A program made the translations under genes and the position numbers. From a virus, in IMG/VR virus record IMGVR_UViG_3300014913_000058, positions 1 to 27,747 of that record: a stretch of DNA of 27,747 nt; one strand, written 5' to 3'. The notes beneath the pieces are model-generated. The model was not told the origin of the DNA. It saw only the letters and a list, made by a program, of their open reading frames with translations, and searched no databases. This document shows, one piece after another, positions 7,254-20,715 of this stretch (the stretch's first letter is position 1; every line of letters begins with the position of its first letter).

Positions 7254-7856
7254 CTAATAGAAAATTAACTGCACATTGGCAGGAATTAAAATTTCAAATA
7301 TTAATCTCAAAAAAGGCTGACCACCTTCACTGAACGGAATCGGAAACGGTAAGGGAAAAGCTTCCCCCACGACACCTGACCCGCCTACAATATGAACAAA
7401 AATAGTATGGCCTGCTTCTCCAGTACTTCCACTGAACATAATCGGAAAGGTCAGCGGAAATGTTAAAAAATCAGCTCCAGGTTTTACAATTATTTCAAAT
7501 CCAAAAAAATCAGCTACGCGCACAAAATCAGCATTTTCTTGTACGCCTCCAAAGTTTGAAAATAACTGTTCTACCTGCTGGCGCCTTCTCTCAAGTGATG
7601 CAGTCGTTTTAAAATAATCATTCGGAATTCCTACTGATTGTTCCCATTCGATCAATAAATCATTCGTTTTCCGGATATCCATTTCATCGGATAACTTCTG
7701 CATCAATAATGATAATCGATAATATTCTACTGCCAAAGCAGCTGTAAACCTACCTAAATTCGTTGATGCGTCAAAGCATCCTTCCCATAAGCGACCTTCA
7801 GGCATACTATCTGCCAGTAAAAATTCGCTATCTTCTTTTGTTATATCAAATCTCAT
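7254..7856 (-). CDS. Mu gp48-like baseplate/tail protein (DUF2313)
   Basis: The 200-residue protein has the features of the DUF2313/YmfQ family: LLADSMPEGRLWEG near the start, a helical middle with EWEQSVGIPNDYF, and RRRQQVEQLFSNFGGVQ followed by a beta-rich C-terminus. In Mu this protein (gp48) lies after gp47 and links the baseplate to tail fibres. Its start overlaps the gp47 stop as TAATG, indicating translational coupling, and the fibre gene follows after 12 bases. Confidence comes from both sequence pattern and exact Mu-like order. Confidence 0.88.
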   Translation of the reverse strand: MRFDITKEDSEFLLADSMPEGRLWEGCFDASTNLGRFTAALAVEYYRLSLLMQKLSDEMDIRKTNDLLIEWEQSVGIPNDYFKTTASLERRRQQVEQLFSNFGGVQENADFVRVADFFGFEIIVKPGADFLTFPLTFPIMFSGSTGEAGHTIFVHIVGGSGVVGEAFPLPFPIPFSEGGQPFLRLIFEILIPANVQLIFY

Positions 7857-9178
7857 TATGAAAAATTAACCGATCCTAATACTCCGATTTCAAGATCATC
7901 AACAGTAATATCTCCGGAAGGAGTGCTCAAAGTAAAAGATGATAATGACTGCCCGGTTTCCGGATCAACGGTATCGATAATTGCTGATCTATATTTATCT
8001 TCTGAAATATCTGTTTCAAATTCAACACTATTTCTATAAAAAGAATTCAAGCTTTCTATAATAGAAGATCTCATTGTAGGTGTATCTGGCGAAATACTTG
8101 TAAATGTATAATTTGTTGTAACAGGAGTTGGAGCTAATGTATATAGCCATGCTTCAGGTGTTTGTGCCGGTAATATTGCAAGTAAAACATCCCGAACGTC
8201 CTGCACTTCACCGGCATCAGGAATTATATTAGAATCATTATCCCGAACAAATAATACTGTTACTGCACCTACATGCGGAGTTATTCTTTTTACTTTTACA
8301 CGAGTAACGCCTGGCACTTTCAGGCATTCTTTTGTTATTGCAGCTGGATTAAAATTCGCTACCGGGTTCGATCTTGACTGCTGAGTTCTATTAAATAATG
8401 ACTCGTTAGATTCGATATCCGCGCCCCCGGTAATTCCTAAATACTGCACTCTTGCAGTAGGATTAATGCCTATTTCCGGGCTGGCCAGTGTTAATTTTGC
8501 GCCGTTTGCCAAATTAACATTAACTCCGCTTTCAGAATCATTCACAACATCTGACTCAACTTCACCAAAAGCACCATCAAAATCTGCCGTAATAGTGCCG
8601 GTTGCAGGAGTGGAAGGAGTGCCGGTAATTTCATATGTGAATTCGGTTTCAGAAATGACTGTTATTACAAATGTTCCATTATATTCAGATTCATTCGCGC
8701 CGAGTATATCAATGCTAATATTTGAGGCAAACTGATGTTCTGATGATGTTACAGCTGTAACTACTGATCCGACACGCGTTAAAGATGTAACACTTATTAA
8801 CTGATTTGCAAAAGTAATACCCGCCTTTAATGAATATACAACTCCTGTTTCAGCTGATACCTTATCACCCGCATCAAGTGTTTTTCCTACTGTACCCTCG
8901 AATGTGACCGGACCATCTGATCCTTCAGCAGCGTTCCTGGTTATTCCTTCATATGCTGCCCATCGTTCTAAAAATTCATCAATGGCAGTTTGAGGAAACA
9001 ACATTTTTTCAAGCTGCTGAATAATTAACTGTAAGTCAAAAGCCCTATTTCCAAGACCGTCACCAAAGCCGCGAGTCATAGAACCAAAAATTGTAGGATC
9101 GATTTCTGGAATGTCTGCCGCGATATCAGCTCTAATCTGATTTAATATTTCTGAAAGTGTCCGATAATTGATAGGCAT
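7856..9178 (-). CDS. Baseplate J-like protein (Mu gp47)
   Basis: The N-terminus (YRTLSEILNQIRADI, then DGLGNRAFDLQLIIQQLEKMLFPQTA and LERWAAYEGI) is typical of baseplate J/gp47 wedge proteins; GTVGKTLDAGDKVSAETGVVY and the later PGVTRVKVK and PDAGEVQDV blocks agree. Residues about 129-201 hold an extra FCCH-like beta domain, so the protein is longer (440 aa) than the core needs. It forms part of the baseplate that triggers sheath contraction. Shine-Dalgarno AGGAAA is present; it follows the gp46 gene by one base and overlaps gp48. Confidence 0.93.
   Translation of the reverse strand: MPINYRTLSEILNQIRADIAADIPEIDPTIFGSMTRGFGDGLGNRAFDLQLIIQQLEKMLFPQTAIDEFLERWAAYEGITRNAAEGSDGPVTFEGTVGKTLDAGDKVSAETGVVYSLKAGITFANQLISVTSLTRVGSVVTAVTSSEHQFASNISIDILGANESEYNGTFVITVISETEFTYEITGTPSTPATGTITADFDGAFGEVESDVVNDSESGVNVNLANGAKLTLASPEIGINPTARVQYLGITGGADIESNESLFNRTQQSRSNPVANFNPAAITKECLKVPGVTRVKVKRITPHVGAVTVLFVRDNDSNIIPDAGEVQDVRDVLLAILPAQTPEAWLYTLAPTPVTTNYTFTSISPDTPTMRSSIIESLNSFYRNSVEFETDISEDKYRSAIIDTVDPETGQSLSSFTLSTPSGDITVDDLEIGVLGSVNFS
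8576..8794 (-). repeat. FCCH-like domain copy 2 (in baseplate J protein)
   Basis: Residues about 129-201 of the gp47-like protein run from VTSLTRVG through SEYNGTF and ETEFTYEITGTP to FDG. By eye more than half of the positions are identical to the domain inserted in the head-tail connector at 20059-20277, and short DNA stretches (for example the bases around 8598-8608) are also identical. Confidence 0.85.
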
Positions 9179-12849: not shown

Positions 12850-14952
12850 TCAACCCATATTAAATCCTAAGTTCCCGGGTAAATCTGTTTCCATTTCTGC
12901 ATCTGTAATTTCTGTGCCTGGCGCTGCCTTTAAACCTATCATTCCGTTTAAAGTTCCTTTCATTGCGTCCATGCGACCGCCCATAGGACTTTCTTCTTTG
13001 GCTCTTTCACGGCGCGCATTAGAATAGGCAACTTCCTCTGCCCATTTCTCTTCAGGAGTTTTCCCGCCAGATCCCAAGAAAGGTATTTTTTCTTTCACGG
13101 CATTAAATTTTTCTATAATACCACCCAGAAATCCTTTTAACGGTTTCCAATGTTTTATTATCAAAGCAGGTATAGATATGAATGGAGCAAAAACAGTAAG
13201 GGCGGCTACGATAAGAGGATTATCAAGCAATTTGCTGAACCATTCCCATACATTCTTGACCTCATATGCCAAAGCGTCCCAGTGTTTTATTATCTGATAT
13301 GCAGCAGCTCCAACGCCTATTAATGCGAATGCAATCGCCCCGGCAATTGCTAAAACAGGAGAAAGCGCAACTCCTAATAATGCGGCCGCAGCTTTAAACA
13401 TCATAATAGAAGATATAATTCCTGCAAGTGTAATAAGCAAAGGACCTATGGTCGCAACTAATAATCCAAACGTGACAATAACTTTTTTAGCAGTTGGATT
13501 CAGCTTTTCAAACCATTCAGTCACCGGTGTCAATAATTCTGTGATCTTTATCACAAACGGAGTGAGAATATCTCCAAAGGCAGCAAACATTAAAACCATT
13601 CTGTTTTTAAACATAGATAATTTTGCGGCCGCTGTTCCATATCGCAACTCGGCTTCTTTTACTAATGCATTGTTTTCAAGCCATGCTGCATTGCCTCTAT
13701 CTATTGCTGTTCGAAATGTATCTCCTGAAGCAGCTGCTCCCAGTAACGCACGTGCAACCCTTATTCCGTCTAATCCTAACTGGTCTAATGCCGCACTCGC
13801 AGGCTTTCCTGTTTTCTTTTCAAATTTTGCCAGGCCTTCAGTAAATTGTAATAATGCTTCAGCTGCATCTTCTTTCCATAGCTTTTCAAACTGAGCAACG
13901 CTTTTCCCGGTTATAAAAGCAAAGCCTTTCATTTTTTGACTGCCCTTACCTATCTCACCACTGATGCGCATTATAGTCTGAGAAACTGCTGACCCACCCT
14001 CTTCAGATTTAATACCAATAGCAGATAATGCAGCTGAAATACTCAAAACATCTGAAGCTGACATACCCGCAAGCTTCCCAGCTGTTTTCAATCTGGATGC
14101 CATGTTGACTATATCTGCTTCTGTGGTTGCCATATTATTACCAAGATCAACAATTACGGATCCCAGTCTATCATAATCTTTCACCGCTACATCCATTACA
14201 TTTGAAAACTTTGCCAATTCCATTGATGCCTGATCGGTGGCAAGATTGGTTGTTTCTGAAAGATCAATTATAACTTTTGTAAACCCTGCAATATCTTCTG
14301 CGTTAATTCCCAGCTGCCCAGCTGCTTCAGCAATTCCAAATATACCCTTGATATTTGTAGGAACTATTTTTGATAAATCTTTAAGGTCTTTATTTAATTT
14401 AAAAAGGACTTCATCACTCGCATCAACTGTTTTAAGAACACCTGTCCAGGCGGATTCCATACCTACCGCAGTTTTAACGGCCACACCACCAGCAATGGCC
14501 ATGGGTAATGTTACCCGAGTAGTTAAAGTTCTGCCTGCGCCTTGCATGTCTTTATGGAATCTACCAATACCTGAATCAGCCATCTTGCGTTTAGCATCAG
14601 ACATTCTTTTATGAAGGGTCAACAGCTTTGCATTCATTCTACCAAGCGAATTAACTGCCTGGTCCGTTTTATGCCTTACTTTATCTTCTTTATCGGCAAG
14701 AGTATCTGCCTTGTATGCTGCCTGAGATATCGCCTGGCCGAGCGCAATATGCTTAGCATTTGATTTATTCAGGGATCCCGAATATGAGTTGACGGATTTT
14801 TTTGTTTTGAGGATAGTGCTATCTAAAGCCCTCATAGCGGCATTTGTAACCATCATCTGCCGCTCGAAGGCTTTAGTTTTTCTCTGAATACGGGCTAATG
14901 GCGTAGTATATTTATCAATTACCTTGTAGAGATATGATACTGAATAGGCCAT
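12850..14952 (-). CDS. Tail tape measure protein
   Basis: At 700 residues it contains a TP901/PhageMin_Tail-type core (about 150-370: GGVAVKTAVGMESAWTGVLK, then EAAGQLGINAEDIAGF and LSISAALSAIGIKSEEGGSAVSQTIMRIS), preceded by a helical, Lys-rich N-terminus, and strong hydrophobic segments at about 480-560. It sets tail length and is ejected during infection; from the usual rule of about 1.5 angstrom per residue a tail near 100 nm is expected. Its ATG overlaps the stop of the -1-frame chaperone extension (TAATG), tying its synthesis to that product. Confidence 0.95.
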   Translation of the reverse strand: MAYSVSYLYKVIDKYTTPLARIQRKTKAFERQMMVTNAAMRALDSTILKTKKSVNSYSGSLNKSNAKHIALGQAISQAAYKADTLADKEDKVRHKTDQAVNSLGRMNAKLLTLHKRMSDAKRKMADSGIGRFHKDMQGAGRTLTTRVTLPMAIAGGVAVKTAVGMESAWTGVLKTVDASDEVLFKLNKDLKDLSKIVPTNIKGIFGIAEAAGQLGINAEDIAGFTKVIIDLSETTNLATDQASMELAKFSNVMDVAVKDYDRLGSVIVDLGNNMATTEADIVNMASRLKTAGKLAGMSASDVLSISAALSAIGIKSEEGGSAVSQTIMRISGEIGKGSQKMKGFAFITGKSVAQFEKLWKEDAAEALLQFTEGLAKFEKKTGKPASAALDQLGLDGIRVARALLGAAASGDTFRTAIDRGNAAWLENNALVKEAELRYGTAAAKLSMFKNRMVLMFAAFGDILTPFVIKITELLTPVTEWFEKLNPTAKKVIVTFGLLVATIGPLLITLAGIISSIMMFKAAAALLGVALSPVLAIAGAIAFALIGVGAAAYQIIKHWDALAYEVKNVWEWFSKLLDNPLIVAALTVFAPFISIPALIIKHWKPLKGFLGGIIEKFNAVKEKIPFLGSGGKTPEEKWAEEVAYSNARRERAKEESPMGGRMDAMKGTLNGMIGLKAAPGTEITDAEMETDLPGNLGFNMG

Positions 14953-15161
14953 TATTTCTTTCCCGAGTTTTCACTTTTTTTATTAATCTTATATGCTGTA
15001 TTGGATAATTCAAAAATGTTATGAATAGGAAGCTTTATAGCTTTTTCATATTTGAGAGATCCCTGCATCCAGGCACAGACATCTAAGATAATTTCAAGCA
15101 GTTCATCTTTCGTTAAACCCCCGCTTACAGTAGCGAGGGAGCGATAAAAACCGCTATGTAC
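14952..15161 (-). CDS. -1-frame extension of the tail assembly chaperone (frameshift product)
   Basis: An ORF of 69 sense codons without a usable start lies in the -1 frame relative to the chaperone gene and ends with a TAA overlapping the tape-measure ATG. It contains LTKDELLEIILDVCAWMQGS and EKAIKLPIHNIFELSNTAYK, a sensible helical protein. The only Met (in CAWMQG) has no Shine-Dalgarno. Slippage at the T-run 15146-15150 would fuse 150 residues of the chaperone to 64 residues from this frame, giving 214 residues. Programmed frameshifting at this exact place is established for Mu (gp41) and many tailed phages; for this phage it is inferred. Confidence 0.75.
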   Translation of the reverse strand, partial: VHSGFYRSLATVSGGLTKDELLEIILDVCAWMQGSLKYEKAIKLPIHNIFELSNTAYKINKKSENSGKK

Positions 15162-15595
15162 TCACACATCATACCAATAATATCTTCAACGGTCAGACGC
15201 TCAAAAAGAGATTTTTTAAATCTGCATTTCTCATCTTCATCAACCCGGCCGCATTTGACTAAGATCTTTTTAAATTCCTGAATAACATCAGGAACGTTAA
15301 CAGAACCAGCTCCAAATAAAATGAGCTTAACTGACTTCGCATCAAGACCTGCGTCTTCTGATGAGTCTTTTTCCATTTTTTTAAGCTGTTCTTCAGTCAA
15401 ATTTCCTTTGGCAAAGGAACTATATTTCTGACTCTCCATCATTGCCTGTGTCACATAAGATGATAGATGCGCAACTTCATCAAGGCAGTCATGAGAAGGT
15501 GGCTCAATAAAAATAGTGAGCGTTTTTTCATGTTCGCCTTTATGACTGAACTCTAATTCTTCTGATAAATTATACTGCATTTCATCTTTTACCAT
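15125..15595 (-). CDS. Tail assembly chaperone (Mu gp41 position)
   Basis: I place the start at the ATG at 15595 (residues MVKDEMQ), which has AGGAGGA six bases upstream; the open frame extends 15 codons further but that part is leader containing a repeat. The 156-residue protein is mostly alpha-helical with an acidic middle and ends in VEDIIGMMCEYIAVFIAPSLL. Located between tube and tape measure genes, it is the expected chaperone that coats the tape measure before tube assembly. Family similarity is weak, so the call rests on position, size and the -1 extension. Confidence 0.8.
   Translation of the reverse strand: MVKDEMQYNLSEELEFSHKGEHEKTLTIFIEPPSHDCLDEVAHLSSYVTQAMMESQKYSSFAKGNLTEEQLKKMEKDSSEDAGLDAKSVKLILFGAGSVNVPDVIQEFKKILVKCGRVDEDEKCRFKKSLFERLTVEDIIGMMCEYIAVFIAPSLL
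15146..15151 (-). promoter_or_regulatory. Candidate -1 frameshift slip site
   Basis: On the minus strand the chaperone frame reads GCG GTT TTT ATC. The Phe codon TTT (15148-15146) can re-pair perfectly one base back on TTT (15149-15147). The overlap with the -1 frame is open only from 15161 to the zero-frame stop at 15127, so slippage must occur in this 35-base window and this T-run is the best site in it. It is not a classical X XXY YYZ heptamer, because the preceding Val codon re-pairs poorly. Confidence 0.5.
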
Positions 15596-15634: not shown

Positions 15635-15656
15635 GGACATTATTATACATCATAAA

Positions 15657-15694
15657 GCATAGAGCTATAATCATATATAGTTATAGCTCTATGC
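15657..15694 (-). terminator. Perfect 14-bp hairpin between tube and chaperone genes
   Basis: GCATAGAGCTATAA (15657-15670) and its exact complement (15681-15694) flank a 10-base AT-rich loop. No T-tract follows on the minus strand, so it is better seen as an RNA-stabilising, processing or attenuating hairpin than a full terminator. It would reduce chaperone synthesis relative to the abundant tube protein. Confidence 0.5.
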
Positions 15695-15707
15695 TGTGAT
15701 ACTGCTA

Positions 15708-16088
15708 TTAAAGAACAGGCGGTCCCTCAAACTCAACTTCGACTTCTGCATCTGCACCTGTAGGCATTTCTGGTTCGCCGAGTACGGCCATCTTGCGGAA
15801 TGACTTTGTAAAGTCTCCCTGGGAAAGCCTGATAGTATTTTCATCACGGTTATCCATCCAGTCTATTACTGATGCATCCACATCTTTTGTCATGATGAAT
15901 GTTGCTTTAACCATTGATTTTTTAGTCTCGGCATCCTCAGTCATTACTGTTTCAATAGAATCACCGCCAGCACTTTGTGATCGAACATTCCTGTCGCCAC
16001 GTCCAGTTTTGTAGCTTAAACTGTTCGGCTTAATAGGAATCGTCACATCATTTATCTGGACAGTTGGATTCTCTAAAGTCTTAGCCAT
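15708..16088 (-). CDS. Tail tube protein (Mu gpM-like)
   Basis: At 126 residues it has the size and pattern of Mu gpM: an N-terminal beta segment with NDVTIPIKPNSLSYKTGRGDRNVRSQS, a middle MVKATFIMTKDVDASVIDWM and a C-terminal beta hairpin ending EVEVEFEGPPVL. Tube proteins stack as hexameric rings inside the sheath and guide the DNA. Strong Shine-Dalgarno AGGAGG lies eight bases upstream, as expected for a highly made virion protein, and the gene directly follows the sheath gene. Confidence 0.9.
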   Translation of the reverse strand: MAKTLENPTVQINDVTIPIKPNSLSYKTGRGDRNVRSQSAGGDSIETVMTEDAETKKSMVKATFIMTKDVDASVIDWMDNRDENTIRLSQGDFTKSFRKMAVLGEPEMPTGADAEVEVEFEGPPVL

Positions 16089-16143: not shown

Positions 16144-17682
16144 TTATGAACTGAATTTAATCTGGATCGTTCCAAGCATTGCTCTGAACTGTGTTACCAG
16201 ATCAGGCGCGGCTGCTATCCTGGCAGTTCCTTCCCGTACTGATACAATTATGGAAAGATTATCATCAAAATCTTTCTTAGCCTGCGTTCCCTTCTGTACC
16301 AGTGCCTCCTCTGCCCATACATCATAGAGCTCAAGAATAAATGCTCTTATACTGCCCTCATTTGCCATATCACGGCGCGGAAGCAATGATCCATCAGTCA
16401 GGCGTGTCTGAGCATATTTAACGCGTCCATTCTCATACAGAGATTCACGCACAACAGATGCAGTATCAACCGTATTAAGATTTTTGTATGAATCATCCGG
16501 ATTTCCAGCTTCATCTGTCAGATATGTTGTGACAAATGTTCCCATAATACTTCCATTAAAGGCACGATTCGGACCGATAATAGAAACGCCATTGGTTTTA
16601 AAATCCTTCTGTTCAGTATTTGTCCAGAAATCCTGCTGTAGCGCAGGCTTTGTATTCGGCATTGCAGTATTAAAATACGGCAATGAAGAAAGTTCCACGC
16701 CTCCAAACTGATCATCCGGAGCAACGGTTGTAAGGTAATCGGCCAACTGAGCATCCTGCGTTCTCCGCAGCGCCCTTATAGCACCAAACTGCGCAATCAT
16801 TGTATCAGGCATTTCCGGTACAGCTGTTCCAACTCTTTTGTTTGCCACATTAAGAGTTTTATTACCTACGACCACAACGCTCTGGCTGTTCTGATTCGCG
16901 TACGCTTTAACTTCGGTAGACGTTCCTTTCTTGACCTGGAATACGACTCCGTCAAGAATCTGATTTTCTTCATTGAAACGACCATCAAGAAGAGTCTGAG
17001 CTTCTGTCAATGCATATGCTGCAGGCCACATGATTGTCTGGTACCGGATATCGCCTACGATATCGAGAACACCGGTTAATACAGGATCATTTGCGCCGCC
17101 TGACCATCCAGTGACTGCAACAGCAACTCCTGCCACCATTCCGGAGTGACGGATATCCCAGTCATTACAAAGTGTCCCACCGTTTGAAGCTGTAATGGTT
17201 ATGACACCGGCCGCATTTGCGGCAGTAAACGGAGCGTCAAGGTCTGCATCCATAAGAGCCACAAGAGCATCGCCGATTTCAGTTGCAGTGTCTTCATCAA
17301 GAATATCCACTTCATACTGATGATCATTTTCTGATCCAACGGAAAATACAAGAGATCCATCTTCCTCAGCAGGCCCGGTAATTGTAAAGACAGATGTTCC
17401 CTGAACTGCAGTGCCGTTATCATCAAGCGGAATAGCATCCAAACGACTGATTTCATTTTCACGCTTAAAGTTCCGGATCATACCGGCAAGATGAGAACGT
17501 CTGCCGAACAGTGTATTATTCTGTGATGTGTTATTGGTAATGTTGTCGTATAAATCACCGGCAGTTGCAGTGCCGGCTGCAAGCATCTGCGCTACGATCA
17601 ACGCGTTCTGGCCTAATACTCCTGCAAGCTGAGACGCAGGAATAATCTGTAAAGATATTTCCGGTTCTAAAATCCCTGGCAT
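16144..17682 (-). CDS. Contractile tail sheath protein (Mu gpL-like)
   Basis: The 512-residue protein follows the Mu gpL pattern: an early hydrophobic block with LAGVLGQNALIVAQMLAAGTA, then FGRRSHLAGMIRNFKREN, a beta-rich insertion domain (about 85-190), and a conserved C-terminal half including AYALTEAQTLLDGRFNEEN, VGTAVPEMPD and YLTDEAGNP. The end (LGTIQIKFSS) supplies the strand that weaves into neighbouring subunits. It proves that the virion has a contractile tail. Shine-Dalgarno AGGAGG is strong. Mu gpL is about the same length. Confidence 0.95.
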   Translation of the reverse strand: MPGILEPEISLQIIPASQLAGVLGQNALIVAQMLAAGTATAGDLYDNITNNTSQNNTLFGRRSHLAGMIRNFKRENEISRLDAIPLDDNGTAVQGTSVFTITGPAEEDGSLVFSVGSENDHQYEVDILDEDTATEIGDALVALMDADLDAPFTAANAAGVITITASNGGTLCNDWDIRHSGMVAGVAVAVTGWSGGANDPVLTGVLDIVGDIRYQTIMWPAAYALTEAQTLLDGRFNEENQILDGVVFQVKKGTSTEVKAYANQNSQSVVVVGNKTLNVANKRVGTAVPEMPDTMIAQFGAIRALRRTQDAQLADYLTTVAPDDQFGGVELSSLPYFNTAMPNTKPALQQDFWTNTEQKDFKTNGVSIIGPNRAFNGSIMGTFVTTYLTDEAGNPDDSYKNLNTVDTASVVRESLYENGRVKYAQTRLTDGSLLPRRDMANEGSIRAFILELYDVWAEEALVQKGTQAKKDFDDNLSIIVSVREGTARIAAAPDLVTQFRAMLGTIQIKFSS

Positions 17683-17949: not shown

Positions 17950-19062
17950 TTATGGAGCTATAGGTTCTTCATCAAGGTCAACATTGACCTGCATATTCTC
18001 AACCGGATAAACACCTTCTTTCTCCGGATCAACTCTCTGTTCATATTCAATATCACGAAATGCGCTTGTATTTTGAGCATCAACTGCATCTTCATCAGTA
18101 AGATCCATGGGTACTTGAAATTCATATCCATAAAGTAATACTGCTTTGTCATAACCTACAAGACCATGGCCGAGAGGAATTGTTTTAAATTCAGGACCGG
18201 TTTCCAGGTTATTATCAAACTCAACTCCATATAAACATTTATAGATCGGCTTTACTAATTCATACCTGCAGATATCAATAGCTACCTCGCCTGTGATCTC
18301 GTCAGATGTTGGAACAAATACAAAGCATGTAAAACCATCAATCAAACGCAATCGTAAATCCTGCCCGTTTCCAATGGTCGCAACTGCATCGGATAATGCT
18401 TCACGCTGTTTTGATGTTTCAACGTCATGGCCTACAACAAATATCCAGTATTCGCCTGCAGCTTTTTTTGTGTATTCTTTCCGCGCCCGATCAAGAGTAG
18501 CAGCTTTTGCCACTCGAACATTTTTACTGACTTTTCCACCAGTATAAACACCGTCACTGATCGGATATTCAGACCTGGTAACCGTGAATGCGGTAGGAGA
18601 AGTAACAGTAATTTCATAAGAGCCATTCACTCCATCAACTCTATTATTCTCAAGCAACACTTCATTTCCGCTTAATGTCGGAAGGCTGTTTACTGATCTT
18701 ACTTTGAATGTTCTGCGATTAGGAACGGCCAGTAATTTAAAACTATCATTCCACGCGCCATCGGTAAAACCATCAAGGCTTACTTCATCATGTTCTTCCC
18801 ATTCATACGTCAAATCATGATCTTCTGATGTTCCAAAAGTGAACACCAGGCCATCTTTAGAAACAGAATCAATATGAGTGCGCGCGGTAACTCCTGCAAG
18901 ATTTATATCATCACCGGTCTCAAGCTCATGAGGATCATCTGTTGTAACAGTAACCACGCCACCAGACGCATTAATCAAGCTTACATTGATTGTATCACTG
19001 AATCTGTCAGTATATACCGGCAGTAAAAATCTAAGCTGATTTACAACATCTAATAGTTTCAT
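17950..19062 (-). CDS. Tail terminator (Mu gp37-like) with inserted FCCH-like domains
   Basis: The first 22 residues (DVVNQLRFLLPVYTDRF) and residues about 181-370 (ARKEYTKKAAGEYWIFVVG, then FTCFVFVPTSDEITGEVAIDICRYEL and LYGYEFQVPMDLTD) form a Mu gp37/DUF1834-type tail terminator, which caps the sheath-tube end and contacts the head connector. Between them, residues about 26-180 are two consecutive beta-rich FCCH-like units, which nearly double the length of the family. The start overlaps the upstream stop as ATGA. The order connector, closure, gp10-like, gp37-like, DUF2635, sheath is as in other Mu-tailed phages. Confidence 0.8.
   Translation of the reverse strand: MKLLDVVNQLRFLLPVYTDRFSDTINVSLINASGGVVTVTTDDPHELETGDDINLAGVTARTHIDSVSKDGLVFTFGTSEDHDLTYEWEEHDEVSLDGFTDGAWNDSFKLLAVPNRRTFKVRSVNSLPTLSGNEVLLENNRVDGVNGSYEITVTSPTAFTVTRSEYPISDGVYTGGKVSKNVRVAKAATLDRARKEYTKKAAGEYWIFVVGHDVETSKQREALSDAVATIGNGQDLRLRLIDGFTCFVFVPTSDEITGEVAIDICRYELVKPIYKCLYGVEFDNNLETGPEFKTIPLGHGLVGYDKAVLLYGYEFQVPMDLTDEDAVDAQNTSAFRDIEYEQRVDPEKEGVYPVENMQVNVDLDEEPIAP
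18523..18987 (-). repeat. FCCH-like domain copies 3 and 4 (in tail terminator)
   Basis: Residues about 26-100 (GGVVTVTTDDPHELETGDDINLAG) and about 101-180 (ending NGSYEITVTSPTAFTVT) show the same landmarks as the domains in the connector and baseplate J: Thr-rich strand, His-x-Leu-x-x-Gly-Asp/Met turn, NG-Ser/Thr-Tyr-Glu-Ile-Thr-Val strand and a Phe-Thr strand. They are more diverged than copies 1 and 2. Confidence 0.65.
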
Positions 19063-19896: not shown

Positions 19897-20715
19897 TTAA
19901 AAAGTATTTATTACCTCAAATGGGTTATATAAAGCCCGTACAGCGTCAGGCATTCCTTTTTTATTCTGTGGCTCAGCATCGCCTCTATTTGCATAATGAA
20001 AAAATACATGCTCTTTTATGGCGGTCTTTATTCCTTCCGGTACCGCTGGAGCTCCTCCAAAATTTACTGTTAAAACACCGGTTGCAGGTGTCGCCGGCGT
20101 TCCAACTATTTCATATGTAAACTCAGTATCACTTGTAACTGTAATCTCATATGTGCCGTTATAGTCAGCCTGATCCGCGCCTGCAATTACAACATTCATA
20201 CCCGATACAAGACCATGCTTTCCGTCAGTCGTTGCAGTTACGGTTGTTCCAGACCTTGTTAAACTTGATACTCCAAGTGTTTTTCTATATCCTGCATCAA
20301 ATGTAATCTTGATCGGATATGGTATATTATCCGCGTCAGTCATTTCGCTTGTATCAGAAAAAATAACCCGCGAAAATTCACTATTCATTTTAATTGCAAA
20401 CTCAGTTACCGGCTCAAACGATTCGGCAATAGATATCTCAATTGACGCAATAGAAATCAGTGGTGAACGCCGGATCTGAATAAAAGGATATCTTTCTTCA
20501 TCGCTACATTGCAGTCCTGAAAAATATCCTTCGAATGTCCTCTGCACGAATGTCCGGTCTGTATAATCTTCACCTTCTTTCGTCATGCCTGAAATCAGGG
20601 CAGACAATAATGCATCATCTACCGCGATTTCATCCTGCTTTATCCATTCTTTAATTTCCGCCAGTGTTACCGGATCCTCACTGGCGGAAATTATAGCTCT
20701 GTAATAATCATCCAT
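19897..20715 (-). CDS. Head-tail connector (gp6/gp15-type) with inserted FCCH-like domain
   Basis: Residues 1-145 show the head-tail connector pattern (VTLAEIKEWIKQD, then DDALLSALISGMTKEGEDYTDR, and the beta part PLISIASIEI ... PIKITFDAGY). The family normally continues directly to a helix of the form PEGIKTAIKEHVFFHYANRGD, which here appears at 226-246. Residues about 147-219 in between are an FCCH-like beta domain, a clean insertion. Twelve subunits probably sit under the portal. The start overlaps the upstream stop (TAATG). Confidence 0.85.
   Translation of the reverse strand: MDDYYRAIISASEDPVTLAEIKEWIKQDEIAVDDALLSALISGMTKEGEDYTDRTFVQRTFEGYFSGLQCSDEERYPFIQIRRSPLISIASIEISIAESFEPVTEFAIKMNSEFSRVIFSDTSEMTDADNIPYPIKITFDAGYRKTLGVSSLTRSGTTVTATTDGKHGLVSGMNVVIAGADQADYNGTYEITVTSDTEFTYEIVGTPATPATGVLTVNFGGAPAVPEGIKTAIKEHVFFHYANRGDAEPQNKKGMPDAVRALYNPFEVINTF
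20059..20277 (-). repeat. FCCH-like domain copy 1 (in head-tail connector)
   Basis: Residues about 147-219: VSSLTRSG, HGLVSGMNVVIAGAD, ADYNGTYEITVTSDTEFTYE and GTPATPATG. This pattern is known in many phage proteins and I recall database labels of E1 FCCH-like for it; that name is structural similarity only and implies no ubiquitin chemistry. Confidence 0.85.

Follow-up and report, generated by a model that had tools for sequence, protein, structure and literature searches.

A probable -1 programmed frameshift of the lambda kind extends an uncatalogued tail assembly chaperone in a contractile-tailed phage

The closest described systems are the tail assembly chaperones gpG and gpGT of phage lambda and their counterparts in other tailed phages, in which a short chaperone is followed by a -1 shift near its end and by an extension that terminates at the start of the tape-measure gene (PMC5009743). 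Phage Mu, with the proteins gp41 and FS-gp41, shifts by -2 and not by -1 (PMC5009743). One-tRNA slippage at Z_ZZN sites is known from insertion sequences of the IS3 family, where U_UU.U is combined with a downstream structure (PMC4066793). In E. coli, U_UUU is a documented shift-prone tetramer and U_UU.U ranks among the most shift-prone ones when a stimulator is present (PMC4066793); with a pseudoknot, Sharma et al. placed A_AA.G before U_UU.C and U_UU.C before U_UU.U (PMC4066793). Six tetramers were active with the IS3 pseudoknot at 0.26-5.6% in E. coli, U_UUU being a weak one (PMC4066793), and this weakness counts against slippage at the site described below.

The stretch of DNA analysed here (the window) is a virus record of 27.7 kb that carries genes for the portal, an HK97-type capsid, sheath, tube, chaperone, tape measure and a DNA_circ_N baseplate hub on the minus strand. 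Its source is a contractile-tailed phage, and the tail genes are arranged in the order sheath, tube, chaperone, gap and tape measure that is found in Mu-like contractile phages, including Mu itself. The layout around the gap is that of lambda and other tailed phages, whereas the slip site GTT_TTT takes the place of the lambda heptamer, neither Pfam nor PHROGs reveals a sequence relationship of the chaperone to gpG, and the product is a tail chaperone and not a transposase as in the IS3 family. The extension of the window lies in the -1 frame and not in the -2 (+1) frame. The sequence-only reading of the locus had named Mu as precedent for the -1 layout; since the Mu shift is -2, lambda or P2 stands closer as regards the mechanism. 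The features of the tail module are compiled in Table 1.

Table 1. Features of the tail module in the window and the evidence for their assignment
Feature	Position	Strand	Evidence
Tail sheath protein	16144..17682	-	phrog_165 tail sheath, 4.4e-55
Tail tube protein	15708..16088	-	Weak tail tube match (phrog_185, PF10618), position, sheath-adjacent homologues in 85 loci
Frame-0 tail assembly chaperone, 156 aa	15125..15595	-	Upstream Shine-Dalgarno, HMM homologue in the corresponding position of 79 loci, AlphaFold pLDDT 93.6
Putative slip site G_GTT_TTT	15146..15152	-	Sole candidate in the 37-nt overlap; core tetramer T_TTT at 15149-15146
Predicted downstream hairpin CCCTCGCT-ACTGTA-AGCGGGGG	15118..15139	-	-13.9 kcal/mol, z -3.3
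-1-frame extension, 64 aa + stop (YRSLATV...NSGKK)	14952..15146	-	Homologous -1 extension in 75 loci, dN < dS, three-helix model
Tape measure protein	12850..14952	-	PHROG tape measure matches down to 2.8e-93, Pfam PF10145

The chaperone gene starts with an ATG that is preceded by the Shine-Dalgarno sequence AAAAGGAGGAACACC and ends with the stop codon TAA at 15127-15125, leaving a gap of 172 nt, and not of 170 as given previously, to the tape-measure gene. Between tail tube and tape measure, the chaperone frame overlaps by 37 nt with a second frame, in -1 position and without a start of its own, that is open from stop to stop (15161 to 14952). The stop codon TAA of the latter shares one base with the ATG of the tape-measure gene (TAATG); when frames and coordinates were re-read, the start-less -1-frame ORF ending in this overlap proved to have been described correctly. 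The same bases are read as TAC ATA GCG GTT TTT ATC in frame 0 and as GTA CAT AGC GGT TTT TAT in the -1 frame. A fusion would comprise 150 residues in common with the chaperone plus the 64 residues after the slip, yielding a protein of 214 aa.

The sheath served as anchor for collecting relatives: screening viral contigs and genome assemblies with its profile detected 92 close ones. When stop-to-stop segments were searched with HMMs, a homologue of the chaperone was present in 79 loci, with the window counted, and one of the extension in 75, and the extension is in the -1 frame in all 75. The other four loci (L092, L144, L175 and L180) were inspected individually; their -1 frame is open to the tape measure, and their slip sites read A_AAT_TTT, A_AAT_TTT, T_TTT_TTT and T_TTT_TTC, respectively. 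The tape measure as query found distant siphophage domains only, or no locus. One further 7-kb contig, L003 (IMGVR_UViG_3300014914_000134), encodes an identical sheath protein and ends before the slip site.

An origin of the -1 frame by chance, by decay or through a sequencing error that split one gene can be virtually discounted. An open frame of 69 codons has a chance probability of about 0.004 at the composition of the window, which by itself is modest evidence and, genome-wide, not negligible, but the relatives refute this explanation, as all 79 loci, which stem from independent assemblies, show the same -1 arrangement, with purifying selection. The -1 frame is therefore taken as real, and the retention of both frames in related phages, proposed earlier as a check, has been confirmed. 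In close pairs, dN is far below dS over the extension (e.g. 0.028 versus 0.363 and 0.131 versus 1.526), and judged from these substitution rates the extension is under purifying selection. It displays the conserved pattern I..L....EGG.SY..L..MP..EL..L...A.KI, its predicted structure consists of three helices (pLDDT 85), and in profile comparison it aligns with extensions from other Mu/P2-like phages (hhalign 95.6%, E 1.2e-8).

Within the overlap of the window, GCG_GTT_TTT_ATC is the only site of the T_TTT type, with G_GTT_TTT as the putative slip sequence. An in-phase X_XXY_YYZ heptamer is absent from this overlap, and the P-site codon GTT would face GGT after the shift. The window thus contains a T_TTT tetramer of the Z_ZZN class, followed 6 nt downstream by a predicted stimulator hairpin, and most relatives contain a canonical X_XXY_YYZ heptamer, with CAT_TTT_TTG and similar sites being counted as canonical on account of the T_TTT_TTG they contain. 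The heptamer A_AAT_TTT occurs in 34 of the 63 distinct slip contexts. The core tetramer T_TTT is kept in 61 of them, the remaining two having T_TTC; accordingly, phenylalanine is encoded by TTT in 61 of 63 contexts, compared with 39 expected from codon use (log10 P -16), and asparagine by AAT in 35 of 35, compared with 19 expected. This bias is also seen in GC-rich phages, such as L009, where TTT makes up only 7% of the phenylalanine codons elsewhere.

Retention of the slip codons against synonymous drift is not needed for separate initiation, and it is very unlikely that the extension is made as a protein of its own by re-initiation or coupling after the chaperone stop. The short gap and the tight coupling of the genes would keep ribosomes at hand for such a start, but in the window the first start codon of the extension frame, an ATG, is located 26 codons past the slip, with no earlier ATG, GTG or TTG, and a scan of 75 loci revealed no start codon close to the slip that is preceded by a Shine-Dalgarno. 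Relatives with such a start had been named beforehand as the case that would speak against a frameshift.

Ten loci (the window, L107, L126, L128, L134, L137, L139, L140, L154 and L172) have no in-phase heptamer and only T_TTT before A. At these loci slippage should rest on tRNA-Phe alone, since P-site re-pairing from GTT to GGT, from ACT to AAC or from CGT to GCG does not work. The earlier suggestion that a standard heptamer is lacking, and that slippage may depend mainly on the Phe codon, is borne out by these ten loci and by the shift-prone character of U_UUU in E. coli. PRFect lists motif shapes such as twofive and twoonefour among those of annotated chaperone frameshifts, and most twoonefour sites are described there as not explained by G:U re-pairing (PMC10885494). 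Judged by these motif names alone, GGTTTTT would correspond to twofive, and GGCTTTT or AACTTTT to twoonefour.

Downstream of the slip codon, the window can form a hairpin of 8 bp that was overlooked in the sequence-only reading; the frame-0 stop codon is formed by loop bases together with the base that opens the 3' arm. In the clade of the window (14 members), a hairpin is predicted 4-8 nt after the slip in 12 members at p < 0.05 (combined p 1e-11), and the mean fold z is -1.7 directly behind the slip site versus about 0 elsewhere. The arms of these hairpins differ within the clade, comprising CCCTCGCT/AGCGGGGG, CCCTCACTT/AAGTGGGGG, CCCTCGTTATT/AATAGCGGGGG and GTAGTATCTGTC/GATGGATGCTAC. An upstream Shine-Dalgarno was not detected in this clade (mean duplex -2.0 kcal/mol; control -2.6), which according to the predicted folds relies on the hairpin. 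In the other lineages, the hairpin signal is weaker than in the clade of the window, and a Shine-Dalgarno-like element is mostly present about 16 nt before the P-site codon (mean -6.3 kcal/mol), with GGG being over-used for the Gly codon at that element (21 seen versus 9.3 expected). An inverse relation between Shine-Dalgarno and hairpin strength (rho -0.45, p 2e-4) was lost in phylogenetically independent pairs (median p 1) and is kept as a lead only.

The hairpin at its fixed spacing of 4-8 nt and the upstream Shine-Dalgarno-like element are ribosomal stimulators, which argues against slippage of the RNA polymerase on the T run and translation of the fusion from an edited mRNA. Such a run comprises five T in the window and eight in some relatives, but the commonest site of the family, AAATTTT, has four T only and no homopolymer, making polymerase slippage an exceedingly improbable source of the fusion. 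Every comparative test available supports the -1 frameshift fusing the chaperone to a 64-residue extension that was proposed initially. Ribosomal frameshifting is thus the preferred reading, and from the comparison of sequences it is very probable that some ribosomes slip by -1 near the chaperone end, a programmed frameshift that would provide two tail assembly chaperones in a fixed ratio.

According to this model, the majority of ribosomes would stay in frame 0 and terminate at the TAA codon, releasing the 156-aa chaperone. A minority would pause at the hairpin while GTT and TTT occupy the decoding sites, tRNA-Phe would leave its UUU codon and pair again with the UUU that overlaps it one base upstream, and reading would continue in the -1 frame, giving the fusion as a minor product with the predicted junction peptide ...CEYIAVFYRSLATV... 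By analogy with gpG and gpGT of lambda, the short form may coat the tape measure and the extension may recruit tube subunits.

On the sheath tree, the distribution of heptamers and tetramers corresponds to nine changes, a count without direction on a quick tree in which 20 of 60 branches are weak. We consider it possible, though not quite probable, that frame and extension remained fixed while the signal passed several times between the two-tRNA heptamer A_AAT_TTT and the one-tRNA tetramer T_TTT, and the stimulator between a hairpin downstream and a Shine-Dalgarno-like element upstream. If this holds true, re-pairing of the P-site tRNA is dispensable and the T_TTT core is the conserved requirement. 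Since the natural series of sites (A_AAT_TTT, G_GTT_TTT, A_ACT_TTT, G_CGT_TTT and others) varies the P-site codon and not T_TTT, the contribution of each tRNA and of each stimulator is directly testable.

The assignment as tail chaperone is firm by virtue of the profile match and the gene order, and by no threshold of a curated family. The chaperone profile aligns with those of Mu/P2-like chaperones (hhalign 85%, E 6e-6). As a single sequence, the chaperone found no match in tblastn searches of phages, in viral contigs, in Pfam or in PHROGs, and one-by-one scans of the aligned chaperones and extensions against PHROGs and NCBIfam yielded no consistent family. The Pfam family Phage_TAC_7 (gpE, gp41, gp14) does not match the protein of the window; among 45 relatives, two match at E values up to 0.1 (best 0.0093). 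A distant kinship is supported by the comparison of profiles. Foldseek found no match for the chaperone model in the PDB, which, like the lack of a Pfam or PHROG match, weighs against the proposed reading. The fold matches in BFVD include proteins annotated as tail assembly chaperones and FS-gp41 of Mu (P0DJY4), mostly with weak scores, and the two strong matches are unnamed.

The locus is accordingly assigned, with high probability, to the -1 programmed frameshifts of tail chaperones known from lambda. The device itself is ordinary; what joins the phages using it is an uncatalogued chaperone family, whose member in the window is recognised neither by Pfam nor by PHROGs. Slippage at U_UUU and -1 frameshifting in tail chaperones are already known, and only the repeated change between heptamer and tetramer in a single family is mildly novel. 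In Acetobacter phage phiAP1 and Bordetella phage PBb002, the genes follow each other as in the window and a -1 extension likewise stays open up to the tape measure, the slip sites being ACC_GGT_TTT_TTT and GAT_TTT_TTG, respectively, whereas their sheaths are just 24-27% identical and the chaperones align as profiles only. No frameshift product is annotated in the regions of their tail modules that were examined.

These data predict that the second chaperone product has been missed in public phage records. In the regions examined of five Mu-like phages, no frameshift product is annotated, and the stretch before the tape measure is blank in four. Between chaperone and tape measure, public Mu-like records contain an unannotated extension in the -1 frame (L004 and L005) or in the -2/+1 frame (L006 and L008), the latter at GGGGGCGA; the deposited annotations of these four therefore miss the fusion.

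Two further observations concern the window. Between tail tube and chaperone, positions 15656-15695 (minus strand) form a near-perfect inverted repeat with a stem of about 16 bp (-24.2 kcal/mol, z -4.45) and without a terminator-like T run, which may lower chaperone expression relative to the tube. Moreover, a segment of 79 residues with 53% identity is common to two structural proteins encoded at 7856-9178 and 19897-20715 (both minus strand), and a third protein, perhaps that at 17950-19062, has a weak E1_FCCH-like match; the segment resembles a domain that has been inserted in several virion proteins of the same phage.
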